A stretch of DNA of 64,000 bases, from positions 1-64,000 of the forward strand of contig NZ_PRDS01000002.1 of NCBI RefSeq assembly GCF_002927635.1. The letters run 5' to 3'. The position numbers were made by a program, and so were the translations under genes. This DNA comes from Albidovulum inexpectatum. Lineage in GTDB: Bacteria > Pseudomonadota > Alphaproteobacteria > Rhodobacterales > Rhodobacteraceae. Below the pieces are notes generated by a model. It saw only the letters and a program-made list of their open reading frames with translations. It searched no databases and was not told the DNA's origin. Positions 25,054 to 34,313 of the stretch are shown here, one piece after another (within the stretch, counting starts at the first letter, position 1; each line of letters begins with the position of its first letter).

Positions 25054-25608
25054 TCACTTGTGACGGATCGTCGTGCCCGTCCATGCCGGCGGGTCCGAGG
25101 CGGGAAAGCTTTCCTCGTCGGCCTCCAGCACGGGGTCGAAGCTGTCCGCGTTCAGGTCGCGCGCGCCCTCGGCTTCGACGCCTCGGTACAGATCGTGGGC
25201 CGAGCCCGGTCGCGGCAGCCCGCCGATCCACGAGGCACCGGGGGCATCCGCGCCACGATACAGACGATGCGCCGATCGTCCCGCCCAAGGGTTGCGCCGG
25301 CGCGGCGGGTCCTCGCGCACGATATAGCGCCAGTTCTGGCGTTCGGCGAAATCCACCGCGCTTGTCCGGTCGGGAAAACGCAGGCGGATCGTACGATAGG
25401 GGTCGGTGCCTTGGCGCCAGCCCATCAGCGGGTCGATGCCGCCGTCGGACCAGGGCTCGAATTCCAGGATCCACTCGTCGCGCCTTGGTCCCGATTGGGT
25501 CGCCGAGCGCGAGGGCCTGTAGATGATCGCCATGGGCACGTCGTCCGACACCAGATCGGTGCCCGGAATGCGTGGACGATATGGCGGTCTGTTATGGCCT
25601 TGGCTCAT
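25054..25608 (-). CDS. NDUFS4-domain protein with tandem repeat and ESFPASDPPAW tail
   Basis: A 184-residue protein, last gene of the leftward quality-control operon. Residues 26-100 match the complex I accessory subunit NDUFS4 (ETC complex I 18-kDa) fold: IYRPSRSATQSG, WILEFEP, DPLMGW and AVDFAERQNWRYIV. A basic stretch then leads to two copies of a 15-residue repeat, SAHxLYRGxxAxGAx, at 112-126 and 136-150 (period 24). The acidic C-terminal EESFPASDPPAWTG motif recurs in other small bacterial proteins. A true complex I role is unlikely given the location; the function is unknown. GGAGGTGGAACG precedes the ATG at 25608. Confidence 0.75.
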   Translation of the reverse strand: MSQGHNRPPYRPRIPGTDLVSDDVPMAIIYRPSRSATQSGPRRDEWILEFEPWSDGGIDPLMGWRQGTDPYRTIRLRFPDRTSAVDFAERQNWRYIVREDPPRRRNPWAGRSAHRLYRGADAPGASWIGGLPRPGSAHDLYRGVEAEGARDLNADSFDPVLEADEESFPASDPPAWTGTTIRHK

Positions 25609-25645: not shown

Positions 25646-26764
25646 TCACGATAGCGCTTTCTGGATCCGGTCGCGATCCTCGATCGGCTGGGGCACGCGG
25701 ATCGTGGCGGCCAGCGTGACGCGGATCGCCTCGACCGTGCAGCGGTCTTCGGGCAGATCGGCTTCGCTCAGGCGCTGGCGCAGGAAGTCATGCGCCGCGT
25801 CCGCGATGCGCTTGACCTCGTCTTCTTCGATATCCAGGAAGGCCGCCACCTGCTGGGGCGTGTCTCCCTCGATATCCAGCCGTTCGACGACCTTGCGCCA
25901 CAGCGCCGGCATGTCGGCCATCGCCCGGTGCAGCTGGACCGAGGTCTCGTGTTCGACAAGCGTGGTCTCGGGGTCTTCGCTTTCGGGATCTGCGATCAGT
26001 TCCTCGAGCAGCAAAGCGTCATCGGGCTGATAGAATTCGAACATCTCCTGATCGGACTCGGTCGGGTCCTGCGCGGGCTCGCGAGGTGCCTCTTCCAGAG
26101 GTTCGGCATCTTCGGGTACCGCACGACGCGCGGCGCGGGCTTCCTCCAGGATCGTCCGGTGCGCGATCTTCATCAGCCAGTCGCCGACCGAGAATTCGGT
26201 CGGGCGATCCTCGAAGGTTTCCAGGCCGTTGAGTATCACGGCATCGACAAGACCGCGCACCGTCAGACGACCCGCCGGGACGCGGCCTGACGCTTCCAGG
26301 TAGGTCAGTTCGCGCCGTACCGCATCGTAGACGGCGTCCAGGTGCTCCTCGATCAAGTCGAAATACAGCGCGCGGCGCTGGGCCTCGGCCGCGTCGCGGG
26401 CAGGCGGAAGCAGCTCGCCCAGCCGGGCCCGACGCGCCGGGCGTTTGAATTCGGGTTCGTGGCGCAGATGCGCCAGATGGCGTTCAAGCCGCTTGCGCAG
26501 ATCGGCAAAAGCCTTGCGCAGAACGGGCTCGACTTCAAAGCCCTCCTCCTGCGCCGCGATGACGCCCGAGGGCAGCTGCAGGCGCAGGCTGGCATGGATC
26601 CGCTTCTTGCCGCGGGTCTGGGTCACGGTCGCTTCCAGCCGCACCAGCTCGGGGCGGAAACGTTCAAGTCGCGGTTCGATCTGACGGATTTCTTCGGCGA
26701 TGACTTCGGGCGCGCGCAGCTCGCCATGGGAATCGAGATTGCGGAATGCCGTGATGGTCTTCAT
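25646..26764 (-). CDS. fusion of an HPF/RaiA-like ribosome-binding domain with a sigma-70-like module
   Basis: A 372-residue protein with an unusual architecture. Residues about 20-110 resemble the hibernation-promoting factor/RaiA fold (HGELRAPEVIAEEI, then VRLEATVTQTRGKKRIHASLR-type strands). Residues 132-210 resemble sigma-70 region 2 (DLIEEHLDAVYDAVRRELTY, VDAVILNGLETF, FSVGDWLMKIAHRTI). An acidic linker spans 211-270. Residues 273-332 resemble sigma region 4 (HRAMADMPALWRKVVERL, DTPQQVAAFLDIEEDEVKRI). The ATG at 26764 follows AAAGGAGG. It lies downstream of clpG/clpK in the same direction. Ribosome binding, core polymerase binding or both are inference from fold resemblance. Confidence 0.75.
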   Translation of the reverse strand: MKTITAFRNLDSHGELRAPEVIAEEIRQIEPRLERFRPELVRLEATVTQTRGKKRIHASLRLQLPSGVIAAQEEGFEVEPVLRKAFADLRKRLERHLAHLRHEPEFKRPARRARLGELLPPARDAAEAQRRALYFDLIEEHLDAVYDAVRRELTYLEASGRVPAGRLTVRGLVDAVILNGLETFEDRPTEFSVGDWLMKIAHRTILEEARAARRAVPEDAEPLEEAPREPAQDPTESDQEMFEFYQPDDALLLEELIADPESEDPETTLVEHETSVQLHRAMADMPALWRKVVERLDIEGDTPQQVAAFLDIEEDEVKRIADAAHDFLRQRLSEADLPEDRCTVEAIRVTLAATIRVPQPIEDRDRIQKALS

Positions 26765-26800
26765 CTCGAGTCCTCCTTTCATTCGACAATTCCGGGGTAT

Positions 26801-26825
26801 CCGGATGCGGGGACCCCGCATCCGG
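26801..26825 (-). other. perfect palindrome between clpG/clpK and the HPF-sigma gene
   Basis: CCGGATGCGGGG (26801-26812) and CCCCGCATCCGG (26814-26825) form a 12-bp inverted repeat around a single base. Read on the minus strand no T run follows. It looks more like an intercistronic processing or stability hairpin, or a protein site, than a terminator. Confidence 0.6.
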
Positions 26826-26853: not shown

Positions 26854-29673
26854 TCAGGCCGAGGCCGGAGCGTCCGAGCCCTTTTCCTTTTCCGAGGACT
26901 CCTCGGCCTTCGGTGCTTCCTTGCGCTCGAGCTTTTCGAAGACGATCTTCTGATCGTCACCCGACCAGCGCACGCGGACCTTGTCGCCATCCTCGATGCG
27001 GCCCGAGAGCATCTCGCGGGCAAGCTCGGTCTCCAGCTCGTGCCGGATCAGGCGGCGCAGCTCGCGGGCACCGAATTCGGGCCGGAAGCCGACGGCGGCG
27101 AAGTGATCGACCACGCTTTCGTCGAATTCCAGCTCGACACCCTGGCCCATGGCCGTCCGCTTGACGCGGTTCAGCTGCAGCTCGACGATCTGACGGATCT
27201 CCTGCTTGTTCAGCGAATGGAAGACGATGATCTCGTCGATCCGGTTGATGAACTCGGGCCGGAAATGGCCACGCAGGACCTCCATCAACTCGGCCTTCTG
27301 CTTGGCCTCGTCGAACTCCTTGGTGCCGCGCTTGGTCAGGTTTCGCTGGATGATGTCCGAGCCGAGGTTCGAGGTCGCGATGATGATGGTGTTCGAGAAG
27401 TCCACCACGCGCCCCTTGCCATCGGTCAGACGGCCATCGTCAAAGACCTGCAACAGGATGTTGTAGACATCCGGATGGGCCTTTTCGATCTCGTCCAGCA
27501 GCACCACCGAGTAGGGCCGGCGACGGACCTTCTCGGTCAGCTGGCCGCCTTCCTCATAGCCGACATAGCCCGGGGGCGCACCGACCAGGCGCGCGACAGC
27601 GTGACGCTCGCCATATTCGGACATGTCGATGCGGATCAGCGCATCCTCGTCGCCAAAGATGACCTCGGCCAGCGTCTTGGCCAGCTCGGTCTTGCCGACG
27701 CCCGTGGGCCCAAGGAACAGGAAGGTCGCGGTGGGACCGCTGCCTTCGCGCAGGCCGGCGCGGGCCAGCCGGACGGCGTCGGCCACGGCCCGGATGGCCT
27801 CTTCCTGACCGATCACGCGTTCATGCAGCTTCTCTTCCAGCTTCAGCAGCTTGTCCTTTTCCTCGGTCGTCAGTTCGGTCACGGGCACGCCGGTGATCTT
27901 GCTGACGATCTGGGCGACATGGTCGGCGCGCACTTCGGCCGTGGCCGAGGCACGGTCGCGCTTCCAGCTTTCCAGAAGCTCGTCCAGCTCCTTCTGCTTG
28001 GCTTCAAGCTCGCGCTTCAGCTCGGCCGCACGGTCGAACTGCTTGCGCGCCGAGGCATAGTCCAGCTCGCGCTTGATCTGCTCGACCTCGGCCTCCAGCT
28101 CCTGCACGTCCACCGGACGCGCCGTGGCGCTGATCTTCACCCGGGCGGCAGCCTGGTCGATCAGGTCGATCGCCTTGTCGGGCATGAAGCGGCCGGTGAT
28201 ATAGCGATCGGCAAGTTCGGCCGCGGCGACGATCGCCTCGTCCGTGATCTGCACCTTGTGGTGGCTTTCCAGCGAGTCGCGCAGGCCGCGCAGGATCATG
28301 ATGGTCTGCGCCACCGTGGGTTCCTCGACATAGACCGGCTGGAAACGGCGCTCGAGCGCGGCATCCTTCTCGATATATTTCTGATACTCGCTCAGCGTCG
28401 TCGCACCGATCAGGTTCAGCTCGCCGCGCGCCAGCGCTGGCTTGAAGACGTTGGCAATGTCCAGCCCGCCTTCGCCGCCACCCTGGCCGGCCCCCACGAT
28501 CGTGTGGATCTCGTCGATGAACAGGATCAGGGTGTCCTTGTGATCCTGGATTTCCTTCAGGATCTTCTGGACGCGTTCCTCGAATTCACCGCGATATTTC
28601 GACCCGGCCACCATCGAGTTGATGTTCAGCTCGACCAGGCGCTTGCCGCGCAGGGCCTCGGGCACCTCGCCCGCGACGATCCGCTGTGCCAGGCCTTCGA
28701 CGATGGCGGTCTTGCCGACGCCGGGTTCGCCGATCAGGACCGGGTTGTTCTTCTTGCGGCGGGCAAGAACCTCGATCGTGGTTTCGATCTCGCGGGCGCG
28801 GCCGATGACCGGGTCCAGCTTGCCTTCCCGTGCCAGTTTGGTCAGGTCGCGGCTGTACTGGTCAAGGTCGGGCGTGTCCGAAGGCGGTTCGACGCGGCCT
28901 TCCTCGGCGCCGCGGCCCACGACCTTGGTGACCTGCTGACGCAGGGCTTGCGGTGTCAGGCCCAGCTTGCGCAGCATCTCGGCCGCCAGACCTTCGCCTT
29001 CCTCGGCCAGACCGATCAGCAGGTGTTCGGGGCCGACATAGGAATGGCCAAGCTCGTTCGATGCGATGAAGGCGCGGTTCAGCGCGTCCTTCAGGCGCGG
29101 GCTGACACCGATCTCGGTGCCTTCGGGCAGCGGGTCGCCCTTCTTGGAGTCCGCCTCGATCTGACGGCGCAGATCGTCGGCATCCAGCTTGACCTGCGAC
29201 AGCAGGGTGCGCACGACGTCCGACTTGGTCAGCGCATGCAGCAGATGTTCGGTGTCCACCTCGCGGCGGCCGAATTCATGCGCTTTCTGAGCCGCATCCT
29301 GCAACAGCTTGTTTGCCTGCTCGCTCAGCCGGTCGGCGATGTTCACGCCACCCGATCGGCGGCCATGCGCGCGGCGCGGGGCTTCGTCGCCAAAGGCCGC
29401 GTCGACCACATCGTCATCGCGTGCGATGTCGTCGCCGATGCGCGGTGCCCGCCGGTCGAAGATGCTGCCGATTCCGCTGTCGCCGAAGAATTCATCAAAC
29501 AGCGAACTGCGGCCGAAAAGCGATTCCAGCGGCGAGGTGCTGCGCCCGGACCGGCGCACCATTTCGCGGTAATGCTGGTCGCAAAGTTCCATGTTCTGGA
29601 CCTTGCCGTTGATCGAGGCGCGTACGCGCGCCGTGGCGGGACGTCCGCAGACATCACATTTTCCGTTCGCCAT
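26854..29673 (-). CDS. clpK: stand-alone AAA+ disaggregase ClpG/ClpK family
   Basis: A 939-residue two-ring AAA+ unfoldase of the heat-resistance ClpG/ClpK type, expected to dissolve protein aggregates. An N-terminal zinc-type motif (Cys6, Cys9, Cys31, His34) is followed by the SPLESLFG segment, a Clp_N double repeat (about 115-255) and AAA1 (Walker A 315-322 GEPGVGKT, Walker B near 386-390). A short UVR-like coiled-coil middle domain (about 525-575) and AAA2 (Walker A 655-662 GPTGVGKT) complete it. Where ClpC carries the VGF/IGF loop for ClpP, the sequence is [11 protein letters not shown], with no tripeptide of that kind, so action without ClpP is likely. It lies 68 bp after ftsH. Confidence 0.88.
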
Positions 29674-29741: not shown

Positions 29742-31577
29742 TCATGCGGCGGCCTCGGGTGTCTCTTTTCTGACCCTTTGCGCGATCTTCTGCAGATCGG
29801 CGTCATCCAGGGTTTCGCGCTCCAGCAGGTCGCGCGCGCTTTCTTCCAGCAGGTCGCGATTGGCCGAAAGGATCGCGATCGTCCGGTCAAAGACCTTGTC
29901 GATCAGGGCCTTGACGGCTGCGTCCATCCGTTCGGCCGTGGCCTCGGAATAGCGCCGGTTCAGCCAGCTGGACTGATCGCCCGTGCCCAGGAAGCCCGGC
30001 CGGTCGGTGTCATAGCTGACATGGCCCAGATCGGGATCCATGCCATAGCGGGCGACCATCGCGCGGGCGATATCGGTTGCCTTGACCAGGTCGTCGGCCG
30101 CGCCGGTGGACAGGTGGCCATAGATGATCTTTTCGGCCGCGCGACCACCCAGAAGGACCGCGATCTTGTTTTCTAGCTCTTCGCGCGTCATCAGAAAGCG
30201 GTCTTCCGTCGGCCGCTGGATCGTGTAGCCCAGCGCCCCGATCCCGCGCGGAATGATCGAGACCTTGTGCACCGGGTCCACGCCGGGCAGGGCCATCGCG
30301 ACCAGGGCGTGCCCCATCTCGTGATGGGCGACGATCTCGCGCTCGCGCGGGTTCAGGACGCGGTTCTTCTTCTCCAGGCCCGCGATGATGCGTTCGACGG
30401 CATTGTTGAAGTCGTCCATCGTCACCGCATCGGCGCCACGGCGGGTGGCCAGCAGGGCGGCCTCGTTCACCAGGTTCGCCAGATCCGCGCCGGAAAAGCC
30501 GGGCGTCAGGGCTGCGACCTTTTCGGCATCGACATCCGCGGCCAGCTTCACCTTCTTCATGTGAACCTTGAGGATGGCGATGCGGCCTTTCTTGTCCGGC
30601 TTGTCCACCAGGACCTGCCGGTCGAAGCGGCCCGCGCGCAGCAGGGCGGGGTCCAGGATCTCGGGCCGGTTGGTCGCGCCCAGAAGGACGATGCCCACCG
30701 ACGGGTCAAAGCCGTCGAGCTCGGTCAGAAGCTGGTTCAGCGTCTGCTCGCGCTCATCGTTGCCGCCAATCGGGCCGCCAGCGGTGCGGGCGCGACCCAG
30801 CGCATCCAGTTCGTCGATGAAGATGATGGCGGGTGCCGCCTTGCGGGCCTGTTCGAACAGATCGCGGACACGGGCGGCGCCGACGCCGACGAACATCTCG
30901 ACGAATTCGGAACCCGAAATCGACAGGAAGGTCACGCCTGCCTCGCCCGCGACGGCGCGCGCAAGAAGCGTCTTGCCCGTGCCCGGCGGGCCCACAAGCA
31001 GGACGCCCTTGGGAATGCGCGCGCCGAGACGGCCGTATTCGGCGGGGTTCTTGAGAAACTCGACGATCTCCTGCAGTTCGGCCTTGGCCTCGTCCACGCC
31101 GGCGACATCGTCAAAGGTCACGCCGGTTTCCTTTTCGACATAGACCTTGGCTCGGCTCTTGCCGATCTGCATGAAGCCGCCAAAGCCCTGCCTTTCGGCA
31201 AACTTGCGGAAGAACAGCATCCACAGGGCAAAGAAGACGAAGGCCGGTACAACCCACGACAACAGGTTCGACAGCCAGGTATTTTCCGGCACACCGGTGA
31301 TTTCGACGCCCTTGCGGTCGATCCGTTCCAGGATGGCGGGATCGACGATCGTGGTCACGAACTGGCTCTTGCCGTCAACCGGCGTGGTAAAGGTGCCCAC
31401 GATCCGGTCGGTGCCCACGGCGACCGACTGGATGCGGCCGTCGTCAAGATACTGCTCGAACTGGCTGTAGCTGATCGGGGCAACTGTCTTCCAGCTGGCA
31501 ATGATATCCTGGATGAAGATCACGGCCATGAAGGCCAGAACCCAGTACCAGATGTTAAATTCCGTCTTCTTTTCCAT
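29742..31577 (-). CDS. ftsH: ATP-dependent zinc metalloprotease FtsH (island copy)
   Basis: A membrane-anchored AAA+ protease, 611 residues. TM1 spans about 9-28, a periplasmic domain 30-100 and TM2 about 101-124. The AAA domain has Walker A GPPGTGKT at 196-203, Walker [11 protein letters not shown] and the SRH region. The zinc site HEMGH is at 419-423. The sequence [16 protein letters not shown] after TM2 is typical of FtsH proteins from heat-resistance loci and differs from what I expect of the essential housekeeping FtsH. It is the first gene of the leftward operon, with a heat-shock-like promoter about 40-67 bp upstream. Confidence 0.93.
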
Positions 31578-31616: not shown

Positions 31617-31644
31617 AGATGTGACCCAAAAACCACAATTCAAG
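31617..31644 (-). promoter_or_regulatory. RpoH (sigma-32)-like promoter of the ftsH-clpK operon
   Basis: On the minus strand CTTGAA (31644-31639), a 14-bp spacer and TCACATCT (31624-31617) resemble the heat-shock consensus CTTGAA / CCCCATNT. The predicted start gives a leader of about 33 nt before ftsH. Confidence 0.55.
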
Positions 31645-31771
31645 AGTGCGTGATCAAAAAAGTTCGCATTATGAGACTCTTTCGGGACCGACGCCCCGCG
31701 CAGCCCGGATTTGCCTTTGCGCCATGCGCAGATTAGAACGCGGATGAAACGTCGTGATGAAGGCAGGGCAT

Positions 31772-32719
31772 ATGGGACTTTCGCCTCGGCACCGGCTCCT
31801 GAACCTCGTGCAATCGGCGCTGCTGATTGGCGGAATGGCGATCCTTGCCTGGGTCATCGTGTCGGCCATCGCGGGGCCCGAGATGACGCTGGCCATCGTC
31901 GGCGGATCTGTTCTGGGCCTGCTGTTCCTGCCGGCGCTGCCAAAGCGTGTTCTGCTGAACGCATATGGCGCGCGGCCGCTGGGACGGCACGACTTTCCCG
32001 AAGGCGTCCAGATGGTCGAGAGGCTTGCGCAAAGGGCCGGGCTGCCAGCGGTGCCCGCCCTGTATTACGTGCCAAGCCAGATGCCGAACGCCTTTGCCCT
32101 TGGCACGCCCGAGGACAGCGCGATCTGCGTGACCGATGGCTTGCTGCGCATCTTGAACCGCAGGGAACTTGCCGGCGTTCTGGCCCACGAAGTTGCACAT
32201 ATCGTCAACCGCGACCTGTGGATCATGGGACTTGCCGATGCAATGTCGCGCGCGGTGTCGGTCGCCTCGTGGATGGGGCAGATGATCCTGCTGCTGAACC
32301 TGCCGCTGATCATGGTGGGCGTGGCGCATGTGCCATGGATCGTGCCGGTTGTGCTGATCTTTTCGCCAACCTTGATGGCCCTGCTGCAGCTGGCCCTGTC
32401 GCGCACGCGCGAATATGACGCCGATCGCGGCGCGGTCGAGCTGACCGGCGATCCCGAGGGGCTGGCCTCGGCGCTGAAGAAGCTTGAGCGGCGTCTGGGC
32501 CGCTTCTGGGAAGAGATGTTCCTTCCAGGCCGCCGCATCCCCGAACCCTCGCTGCTGCGCACCCATCCCCCGACCGAAGAACGCATCAGGCGGTTGCGCG
32601 AAATGGCGGCCGAGCTTGCGGGTCGCGATGGGGGCGACTGGCCTGCGGCGCCCTTGTCGATCGACCTTGCGCAGCCGCCGCGCCCGCCGCGTTTCGGCCC
32701 GTGGGGCGTCTATCGCTAG
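31772..32719 (+). CDS. M48 family membrane zinc metalloprotease (HtpX-like)
   Basis: A 315-residue membrane protease. Two predicted membrane segments lie near the N terminus (about 10-55) and two more after the active site. The zinc motif is HEVAH in GVLAHEVAHIVNRD, with the downstream glutamate in SRTREYDADRGAVEL. HtpX-type enzymes degrade misfolded membrane proteins together with FtsH, which is transcribed divergently. The ATG at 31772 has AAGGCAGGG upstream; an ATG at 31757 is also in frame. It belongs to the M48 type found in heat-resistance loci and is not a close match to E. coli HtpX. Confidence 0.85.
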   Translation: MGLSPRHRLLNLVQSALLIGGMAILAWVIVSAIAGPEMTLAIVGGSVLGLLFLPALPKRVLLNAYGARPLGRHDFPEGVQMVERLAQRAGLPAVPALYYVPSQMPNAFALGTPEDSAICVTDGLLRILNRRELAGVLAHEVAHIVNRDLWIMGLADAMSRAVSVASWMGQMILLLNLPLIMVGVAHVPWIVPVVLIFSPTLMALLQLALSRTREYDADRGAVELTGDPEGLASALKKLERRLGRFWEEMFLPGRRIPEPSLLRTHPPTEERIRRLREMAAELAGRDGGDWPAAPLSIDLAQPPRPPRFGPWGVYR

Positions 32720-32724
32720 GACCT

Positions 32725-32753
32725 CTTGAAAGCGGCGATCACGCTTCCTTTAT
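32725..32753 (+). promoter_or_regulatory. RpoH-like promoter of the Hsp20 operon
   Basis: CTTGAA at 32725-32730, a 16-bp spacer and CCTTTAT at 32747-32753 fit the alphaproteobacterial heat-shock consensus (CTTG-N17/18-CYTAT). The first Hsp20 gene starts about 200 bp downstream. The stretch 32754-32950 holds no convincing gene and could be a long, possibly temperature-responsive leader. Confidence 0.55.
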
Positions 32754-32961
32754 CGGATGTGAAACGCCCGACAGGGGTTTCGACAGACAGGCGACAGGTT
32801 CGGCTTTGCAGCGGACCAACGGCCATCGCCATAGGGGAGGCCGGGAGTCGCAGATGCTTGCCGTCGCGGATGCGGCGGGACCTGACGCATGTCCGTCCAC
32901 CATGGGCGTTCGCGACCGCGCGATGGCGCGGAACGAAAGACGCAACGGATGGAGGCATGTC

Positions 32962-33390
32962 ATGTTCTACCCTTCCTTTCCACGGCGCAGCGATCCGTTC
33001 GATCTGATGCAGGCGATGCTGCGCGACATGGACGATCTGTTTGGCCTTCGCGCCGAAACCGCAACCTTTCCCGCAGTGAATGTCTGGCAGGGTGATGAGG
33101 CCATCGCCATCACCGCCGAGATCCCGGGCGTGGACATTGCCGACCTGGATATCTCGGTAAAGGACAACGTCCTGACGATCTCGGGCGAACGCAAGCCGCC
33201 TGAACTGCCCGAAGGTGCGCGCTGGCACCGCAGCGAACGCAGCTATGGGCGCTTTGCCCGTTCCATCCGGCTGCCCTTTGCGGCCAGCGATGATCGCGTC
33301 GAGGCACGGCTGACCAATGGTGTCCTGCGTATCGTCGTGGCGCGGCCCGAGGAGGACAAGCCCCGGCGGATCGAGATCAAGGCGGCCTGA
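32962..33390 (+). CDS. small heat-shock protein Hsp20, copy 1
   Basis: A 142-residue alpha-crystallin-domain chaperone that holds unfolding proteins. The N-terminal FYPSFPRRSDPFDLM is followed by the alpha-crystallin core (about 38-130). The core contains ITAEIPGV, NVLTISGER and the A-x-x-x-NGVL motif (ARLTNGVLRIVV). A short C-terminal extension carries the IEI motif. GGAGG precedes the ATG at 32962. First of three consecutive hsp20 genes. Confidence 0.93.
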   Translation: MFYPSFPRRSDPFDLMQAMLRDMDDLFGLRAETATFPAVNVWQGDEAIAITAEIPGVDIADLDISVKDNVLTISGERKPPELPEGARWHRSERSYGRFARSIRLPFAASDDRVEARLTNGVLRIVVARPEEDKPRRIEIKAA

Positions 33391-33408
33391 GAGAAGGGAG
33401 AAGGAAAG

Positions 33409-33789
33409 ATGAGCACTGAAGTCACCCGCAAGTCGAATGGCGCGGACGAAGCCGTCAAGCGTGTGTATCGGCCCCTGACCGATATCGTCGAAACCGAAGA
33501 TGGCGTCACGCTGATGGTCGAGATGCCCGGCGTTGCGCCCGATGACGTGGACGTGACGCTGGAGAAACGGGTTCTGACGATCCGTGGCCGCGTTCATCCC
33601 GTTCGTTCGGACAAGCTGCGGCTTGCCTATGCCGAATATGGTGAAGGCGATTTCGAGCGTTCCTTCACCTTGTCCGAGGATTTCGACCCCGAACGTATCG
33701 AGGCAAAACTGTCGAACGGGGTGCTGACCCTGACCCTGCCGCGCGCGGCCGAAACGACCCCGCGCAAGATCTCGGTCAAGGCGGCGTGA
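33409..33789 (+). CDS. small heat-shock protein Hsp20, copy 2
   Basis: A 126-residue Hsp20 with a very short N-terminal arm, so the alpha-crystallin domain (about 20-120) makes up most of the protein. Core motifs are LMVEMPGVAPDDVDV, VLTIRGR and AKLSNGVLTLTLP, and the C-terminal extension carries KISVK. It lies 18 bp after copy 1. The short arm suggests a different oligomer size from its neighbours, perhaps forming mixed assemblies. Confidence 0.92.
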   Translation: MSTEVTRKSNGADEAVKRVYRPLTDIVETEDGVTLMVEMPGVAPDDVDVTLEKRVLTIRGRVHPVRSDKLRLAYAEYGEGDFERSFTLSEDFDPERIEAKLSNGVLTLTLPRAAETTPRKISVKAA

Positions 33790-33809
33790 GCAAGGAAAGG
33801 AGGCCAGTC

Positions 33810-34313
33810 ATGCAGATCAAGGATCTCATTCCCTGGGCGCGCAAGGACGAAGCCGGCGATGCGAAGGGTTCGGATCAGAACCCGATCGCGGCGCTTCAGC
33901 GCGAGATGAACCAGGTGTTCGAAAACTTCATGAACCGCTTTGGCAAGGGCCTGGGCCAGCTTGACTGGCCCTGGGGCAACAGCGAGGCCAAGTCCGACGT
34001 CGTCCAGACAGACGGCGCGGTCGAAGTCTCGATCGAGCTGCCTGGGATGGACATGAAGGACATCGAGGTCACGGTCACCGACGACATGCTGACCGTGAAA
34101 GGCGAAAAGAAGATCGAGCGTCAGGAAGAGAAGAAGGGCTATTACCTGTCCGAGCGGAGCTATGGCGCGATCTATCGCACCATCCCGCTGCCGCCCGGGG
34201 TCGATGGCGAAAAGGCCGAGGCGACGTTCAAGAACGGCGTTCTGACCATTCGTCTGCCCCAGACGCCCGAAGCCCAGGCCCGGGTCAAGCATATCGAGGT
34301 CAAGGGCGCCTGA
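33810..34313 (+). CDS. small heat-shock protein Hsp20, copy 3
   Basis: A 167-residue Hsp20 with a longer N-terminal region (about 1-60, containing MNQVFENFMNRF). Its alpha-crystallin domain contains VSIELPGMDMKDIEV, MLTVKGEKK, YLSERSYGAIYRTIPLP and ATFKNGVLTIRLP, ending with IEVKGA. AAAGGAGG lies six bases before the ATG at 33810; a GTG at 33786 overlapping the previous stop is less likely. It closes the operon, followed by a perfect terminator. Confidence 0.93.
   Translation: MQIKDLIPWARKDEAGDAKGSDQNPIAALQREMNQVFENFMNRFGKGLGQLDWPWGNSEAKSDVVQTDGAVEVSIELPGMDMKDIEVTVTDDMLTVKGEKKIERQEEKKGYYLSERSYGAIYRTIPLPPGVDGEKAEATFKNGVLTIRLPQTPEAQARVKHIEVKGA

Follow-up and report, generated by a model that had tools for sequence, protein, structure and literature searches.

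The window, the whole 64,000-nucleotide stretch of Albidovulum inexpectatum DNA that was analysed, carries on its reverse strand a run of genes in which ftsH is followed by a clpK-like gene, a third gene that encodes an HPF/RaiA-like domain fused to a sigma factor-like module, and an NDUFS4-like gene, with genes for an M48 peptidase and Hsp20 proteins diverging from the run (Table 1). The initial annotation had placed the fusion in a heat-shock context with clpK and ftsH, and profile searches confirmed both neighbours, the FtsH match lying above its cutoff. Since the product of the second gene scored below the ClpK cutoff, it is described here as ClpK/ClpG-like and not as ClpK by rule. One more Hsp20-like frame, ending at position 33390, was matched by tblastn only. 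The NDUFS4-like protein belongs to a family of complex I accessory subunits. A weak RpoH-promoter-like site lies in front of ftsH, scored against what we take to be the RpoH consensus; by the count of matches in the window it was no better than chance.

Table 1. Positions of the genes, protein domains and sites described in the text
Feature	Position	Strand	Basis
HPF-sigma-like fusion gene, 372 aa	25646..26764	-	single open frame with ribosome-binding site; relatives share the start Met
Ribosome-binding site AAGGAGG, 7 nt 5' of ATG 26764	26772..26778	-	read from sequence
HPF/RaiA-like domain, residues 1-102	26459..26764	-	S30AE match; AlphaFold2 topology E-H-E-E-E-H; Foldseek; hhalign
Basic tail, residues 103-115 (with KRPARRAR)	26420..26458	-	conservation across fusions
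Sigma region 2-like helical bundle, residues 125-214	26123..26392	-	sigma70-ECF match at 136-332; four helices in model
Acidic linker, residues 215-264	25973..26122	-	strongly conserved; pLDDT <50 at 219-228 and 244-250
Linker motif EFYQPD, residues 243-248	26021..26038	-	E243, Q246, P247 and D248 identical in 8/8 divergent members, two of them HPF-less
Sigma region 4-like domain, residues 265-334	25763..25972	-	model helices 265-284, 287-298, 303-310, 314-334
Site equivalent to the -35 recognition helix (residues 314-328), acidic in this protein	25781..25825	-	net charge -3 in window protein
NDUFS4-like protein, gene downstream of fusion	25054..25608	-	PF04800 E 8.4e-20
ClpK/ClpG-like disaggregase, upstream of fusion in operon	26854..29673	-	NF033606 1587.6 bits, under cutoff 1900
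FtsH protease, first gene of operon	29742..31577	-	TIGR01241 774.7 bits, above cutoff 600
RpoH-promoter-like site, weak, 40 nt before ftsH	31617..31644	-	2 window matches vs 1.25 expected, count not significant
Divergent M48 peptidase and Hsp20 genes	31754..34313	+	PF01435 E 3.8e-33 (31754-32719); PF00011 (33409-33789, 33786-34313)

An in-frame ATG is also present upstream, at 26821, and the relatives start at M(K)..FRNLD, the same place as the ATG at 26764. Each of the 19 fusions collected occupies one frame, 356-396 aa long; on this basis a frameshift or chimaera was rejected, and the initial annotation was right to treat the locus as a single gene. A lone oddity of the A. inexpectatum genome was rejected as well, given the relatives on 270 plasmid records. 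Along the chain, the HPF/RaiA fold (residues 1-102) is followed by a basic tail (107-114), a sigma2-like bundle (125-214), the acidic linker and a sigma4-like helix-turn-helix domain (265-334).

The HPF-like and sigma-like halves

The reading of this protein as an HPF/RaiA-like N-terminal domain fused through an acidic linker to sigma regions 2 and 4 was borne out by profiles, by structure and by tests made clade by clade. In the window protein, Pfam Ribosomal_S30AE matched residues 31-98 (E 5e-4) with 21.2 bits, slightly under the cutoff of 23.7, and scored slightly above it, at 23.9 bits, in a six-frame search of the genome; NCBIfam sigma70-ECF matched residues 136-332 (E 1.8e-10) with 40.7 bits against a cutoff of 42.9, and in another search with 42.5 bits, or 43.1 when frame neighbours were included. 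Among 11 relatives including the window member, sigma70-ECF matched ten at E <= 0.1, and S30AE and Sigma70_r4_2 matched nine each at E <= 1 (best Sigma70_r4_2 match 2.3e-7), the window member itself being unmatched by Sigma70_r4_2. The Cupriavidus relative exceeded the Pfam cutoffs on both halves (S30AE 28.4 > 23.7; Sigma70_r4_2 35.9 > 25.7). The Burkholderia relative reached 18.4 bits with S30AE, and the tLST member, taken alone, had no S30AE match and a weak Sigma70_r4_2 match (E 0.022). For profile-profile comparison with hhalign, the 19 fusions were divided into alpha (15), beta (2) and tLST-type (2) sets. Against 30 housekeeping HPF domains, taken from 29 other genomes and the organism's own, the HPF parts gave p values of 1.2e-5 (alpha), 2.5e-7 (beta) and 4.6e-6 (tLST-type), and the reversed-sequence controls of the same comparison gave 0.15, 0.42 and 0.52, respectively. 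Against seven sigmas of the organism's own genome, the sigma parts gave p values of 5.8e-11, 1.8e-8 and 1.7e-4 in the same order, so that the tLST-type set by itself is weak in its sigma half. In a comparison of sets with no members in common, the tLST-type set matched the alpha set directly, both in the N-terminal half (p 2.3e-6) and in the sigma half (p 8.4e-25).

Structure comparison likewise shows both the HPF and the ECF fold. An AlphaFold2 model built from 12 sequences (pLDDT 80.9, pTM 0.57) shows strands and helices in the order known from HPF, and after them helices of sigma2 and sigma4 type on either side of a linker with little order; since the pTM is moderate, the model does not fix the relative placement of the domains. 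In a Foldseek search of the PDB, three matches of which had E <= 0.001, the top ranks went to chains of ECF sigmas, the best at E 7.7e-5, and to chains of HPF type, among them 3tqm at E 9.5e-4; the HPF-type chains 4hei and 2rql had TM scores of 0.84 and 0.81 by target length. A phmmer search of PDB sequences gave a single match of no use (E 3.6).

We compared the basic residues of the HPF half with those of the 30 housekeeping HPFs, whose basic columns used here we take to be rRNA-facing. In helix 2, a basic residue stands at position 95 in 19/19 fusions and at 101 in 15/19. The tail carries K or R at 107 and 108 in all 19 and at 111 and 112 in 18, in columns that are basic in at most 10% of the housekeeping proteins, most of which are gapped there. 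Five basic columns of the housekeeping proteins (equivalents of R18, K24, K81, N/K87 and K90) are lost in the fusions, the window protein has His in one column that is basic in 30/30 of them, and DMYAAID is absent. Because helix 2 is partly basic and the new tail is nearly invariant, binding of the HPF domain to the ribosome is plausible, even though the other basic positions and DMYAAID are gone.

In the sigma-like half, all 19 fusions carry the motif RExxYxxxxG, and WLxx(I/L)A of region 2 is kept in the alpha set. The glutamine of DLVQE, the core-binding motif of region 2.2, is replaced, with VDA, VDE or similar residues there; two sigmas of the same genome (L039 and L034) likewise deviate from DLVQE. 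The linker motif E(F/Y/W)(Y/W/H)QPD is among the most conserved parts of the family. The E, Y and G of (R/H)ExxYxxxxG are identical in 8/8 divergent proteins, two of them HPF-less, as are four residues of the linker motif (Table 1). Since these residues are kept without the HPF domain, their partner appears to go with the sigma module, independently of the ribosome domain. At the place of the recognition helix, the net charge across the 19 fusions averages -2 (range -4 to 0); it is -1 in the organism's own PhyR, and 0 and -1 in two HPF-less relatives. By comparison, five ECF-type sigmas of the same genome average +3.2 (range +1 to +6), in a small control that was picked and aligned by hand and excluded L033, L034 and L037 (above the cutoff, not ECF-type) together with seven matches below the cutoff. 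Relative to these five sigmas, the fusion helix is without the basic character typical of ECFs that read a -35 element.

These features bear on whether the protein is a true alternative sigma gated by the state of the ribosome, that is, kept on ribosomes by its HPF domain until it is let go to transcribe stress genes. The sigma70-ECF match, the Sigma70_r4_2 match of the Cupriavidus member above its cutoff, the retained WLxx(I/L)A and the existing annotation of several alphaproteobacterial plasmid copies as sigma-70 family factors are in keeping with it. However, the recognition helix is acidic, no transcription phenotype is known to us, and visual inspection of the aligned regions upstream of ftsH from the window and ten alphaproteobacterial loci (one of them short) showed no common promoter, nor did two regex promoter forms match there; we consider a true sigma unlikely. 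The same loss of basic charge, which is family-wide, speaks against the suggestion of the initial annotation that ribosome protection is coupled to transcription of a recovery programme, as this would need a sigma that reads promoters; its other suggestion, that the sigma fold serves another partner, fits better.

Because the recognition helix resembles that of PhyR in its lack of basic charge, and because the PhyR_sigma-like profile matched 4/11 members, a protein-binding mimic is likelier than a promoter reader. One such mimic would be a PhyR-like anti-anti-sigma that titrates NepR or another anti-sigma and so frees a stress sigma. The organism's own genome has a PhyR-type match above the cutoff, with an EcfG-like sigma (by reading) less than 1 kb away on the other strand, and an RpoE/NepR complex is among the Foldseek matches. 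We nevertheless hold the PhyR-like role to be improbable, as no receiver domain was found in the fusion by Pfam and NCBIfam scans, and the tLST gene has matches in 152 of 5426 complete E. coli genomes, with relatives also present in other gammaproteobacteria, a class from which, to our knowledge, NepR is not known.

Distribution, neighbourhoods and relatives

A search of 72,556 plasmid records with the window protein matched 270, and 269 of these matched over at least 80% of the query. Among the matches listed, alphaproteobacterial copies are about 60% identical to the window protein, and copies from Burkholderiales, Klebsiella, Enterobacter, Escherichia, Acinetobacter and others are about 27-31% identical. 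The Burkholderia protein matched 308 plasmid records, and in 273 the match spans at least 80% of the query; the other 35, without a place over 80% of it, include split copies. Of the 152 matched E. coli genomes, 144 have a place that matches 80% or more of the tLST gene and eight have none. Near the window's organism the fusion is sporadic (3/101 genomes, its own included), and five of 299 genomes searched with the Burkholderia protein were matched: two by full fusions, one by a truncated copy, one by an HPF-less protein and one by what was called, by reading, an ordinary ECF (L023). Among 398 Pseudomonadota genomes searched, 43 had the linker motif, at 44 places in all; the 34 places examined comprised 26 frames with the motif and eight without, and five of the 26 are family members (G000, G043, G436, G392, which is truncated, and G199, without HPF). 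The remaining motif frames look unrelated and were set aside, e.g. LptD-like, RuvB-like and amylomaltase-like frames (named by eye).

In 15/15 distinct alpha loci (L015 and L004 being treated as one contig, and L014 and L087 as one genome) clpK lies upstream of the fusion, as the next of the genes sought in 14 and with hdeD between them in L004, whereas the two beta loci have hsp20, groEL and dnaK as neighbours instead. As the loci were collected through the fusion, these counts are silent on how often clpK occurs without it. The NDUFS4-like gene lies downstream in 13/15 alpha loci, and in some alpha loci hdeD adjoins the fusion and trx- or kefB-like genes follow 2-6 kb downstream. Of the 19 distinct loci scanned that carry the fusion, 18 have a gene for a chaperone or protease nearby; the exception, L085, has only a short ftsH-like stretch at its end. 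Distant versions of the gene belong to the tLST, a stress-tolerance island borne by plasmids of Klebsiella, Enterobacter and other bacteria. In L016, the one tLST locus examined, the gene is annotated as hypothetical and lies between hdeD-GI and trx-GI. L085 (G436:C77), from an alphaproteobacterium of the window's family, has trx-, kefB- and NDUFS4-like neighbours; its product, assigned to the tLST-type set by reading, was later found closest to that of L016 among five compared (38.3% identity, against 25.1% to the window protein). This alphaproteobacterial copy, nearest in type to tLST orf11, links the alpha and gamma types. One locus (L024) was found in the viral collection, an alpha-type island on a contig of 41 kb that IMG/VR lists as viral; frames in the last 2 kb of the locus look phage-like by eye.

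Three sigma-like proteins without an HPF domain in frame were found, L022, L027 (Azospirillum) and L026 (Phenylobacterium, with an in-frame stop), and all three share (R/H)ExxYxxxxG, or a like motif, and the linker motif E(W)(Y)QPD(D/E). Their presence without an HPF domain assigns these motifs to the sigma module, irrespective of what is joined to its N-terminus. In L026 (7594-8600) and L027 (7594-8642) the start of the HPF-less gene is overlapped by 4 nt by a DUF5335 gene (Pfam E 1.1e-36 in L027), and the pair is possibly a two-gene counterpart of the fusion; no mention of DUF5335 was found in the literature searched. The L026 plasmid also has hsp20, lon and trxC nearby, and the L027 plasmid a dnaJ-type gene and trxC. 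These relatives weigh on a further explanation, a two-site hibernation factor like archaeal HibA, in which the HPF domain would sit on the 30S subunit and the sigma-like module would cover a site on the 50S. There is a precedent in HibA, described in the part of the source consulted as an HPF domain with a second module that reaches the 50S (PMC13324472), and the HPF-like domain with its basic tail would suit such a role. But two HPF-less relatives conserve the linker motif and ExxYxxxxG just as strongly, and the linker and recognition helix are acidic, which leaves a HibA-like factor quite unlikely.

Selection, proposed role and known systems

Six of seven pairs gave a whole-gene dN/dS of 0.15-0.31, the window/L003 pair being near saturation in dS (1.14) and the remaining pair saturated; from these values, the fusion is judged to be under purifying selection. 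The HPF part has the lowest dN/dS in three of the six pairs. Region 4, at 0.14-0.64, is loosely constrained in some pairs (0.64 in one), and the value of 1.5 for the linker of the L007/L008 pair rests on very few changes. A low-probability reading is that the gene is a passenger of stress islands with little function left. In the parts of the reports consulted, orf11 is not one of the genes whose deletion made E. coli MG1655 lacZ::LHR less resistant to heat or chlorine, and its loss left oxidation probes unchanged (PMC8407380); orf11 is interrupted in LHR2 (PMC5383660). The 35 plasmid records and eight E. coli genomes with incomplete matches point the same way, as does a truncated copy (L021 1378-2115, genome G392), which has lost its HPF half, adjoins HdeD and NDUFS4-like genes and looks truncated by rearrangement. 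Against a passenger stand the dN/dS values, motifs kept across three bacterial classes and the near-complete matches of 269/270 plasmid records. The absence of a reported heat or chlorine phenotype for the orf11 deletion is the main evidence against a role. In the portion of Li 2020 consulted, one hypothetical protein, unnamed there, is among 11 expressed LHR proteins, and we do not equate it with orf11 (PMC7010813).

We tentatively propose, with somewhat less than even confidence, that the fusion is a sigma mimic anchored to the ribosome, working through protein contact with core RNA polymerase as its most likely partner, or else with a sigma regulator. Heat or oxidative stress would bring the HPF-like domain, together with the basic tail, onto the 30S subunit of ribosomes that are idle. 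The sigma-like module tethered there keeps its sigma2 and sigma4 folds and acidic linker but would no longer read the -35 element; it would work by contact, most likely by occupying core RNA polymerase with the linker in place of sigma region 3.2, and transcription would be held down or parked beside resting ribosomes. Sigma region 3.2 threads towards the RNA exit channel in holoenzymes, and we put core RNA polymerase first among the possible partners because the acidic linker at this position is conserved. The lost glutamine of region 2.2 would weaken binding to RNA polymerase, and the loss of five basic columns and of DMYAAID in the HPF half, with the loosely constrained region 4, would also count against the sigma-mimic reading. 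A bolder form of the proposal, possible but rather unlikely, is that one protein rests both machines, the HPF domain gripping the 30S subunit and a promoter-blind sigma fold gripping core RNA polymerase, and that it has spread widely in stress islands as the overlooked orf11. Binding of RNA polymerase by the sigma mimic, if it occurs, would tie ribosome hibernation physically to transcription, a connection that stress physiology has left open. The analysis gives domain content and a testable role to orf11, a gene without a role in the tLST papers examined, and points to a family of linker-motif sigma mimics, some of them HPF-less and encoded next to DUF5335.

Among the papers listed from the open-licence PMC literature, neither an HPF-sigma fusion nor a connection of the tLST with hibernation was found described. 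The initial annotation had known of no function for such a fusion; no description of one was found, but the protein is related to tLST orf11, which had already been deleted in E. coli (PMC8407380, consulted in part). Each part is of a known kind, whereas their joining in one protein was not met in the literature searched. The closest known relative, orf11 of the tLST/LHR, shares the domain order and the linker motif, matches in both halves by profile, and is 28-30% identical over about 84% of the query (tblastn, among the matches listed; 28.2% between L016 and the window). It differs in being only about 30% identical and in its neighbours, the tLST order being hdeD-orf11-trx-kefB and that of the window ftsH-clpK-fusion-NDUFS4. 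From the gene order in a figure legend, orf11 probably corresponds to ORF10 of TLPQC in P. aeruginosa clone C (PMC7685784, consulted in part). HPF/RaiA (YfiA) shares the fold and part of the basic second helix, but the sequence match is weak, and the fusion lacks DMYAAID and has an extra basic tail. Long HPF carries a C-terminal domain, in place of which the fusion has its sigma module. HibA of archaea, like the fusion, joins an HPF-type domain to a second module; unlike in the fusion, this partner is a CBS module that comes first in the chain, according to the part of the source consulted (PMC13324472). The sigma-like domain of PhyR is likewise a sigma2-sigma4 mimic with a non-basic region 4, but PhyR has a receiver domain where the fusion has HPF. 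ECF41, an ECF sigma with a fused domain, resembles the fusion in combining sigma2 and sigma4 with an extra domain; its extension is C-terminal and, in the source material consulted, of a different kind, and the region 4 of the fusion, unlike that of ECF41, is without a basic helix.
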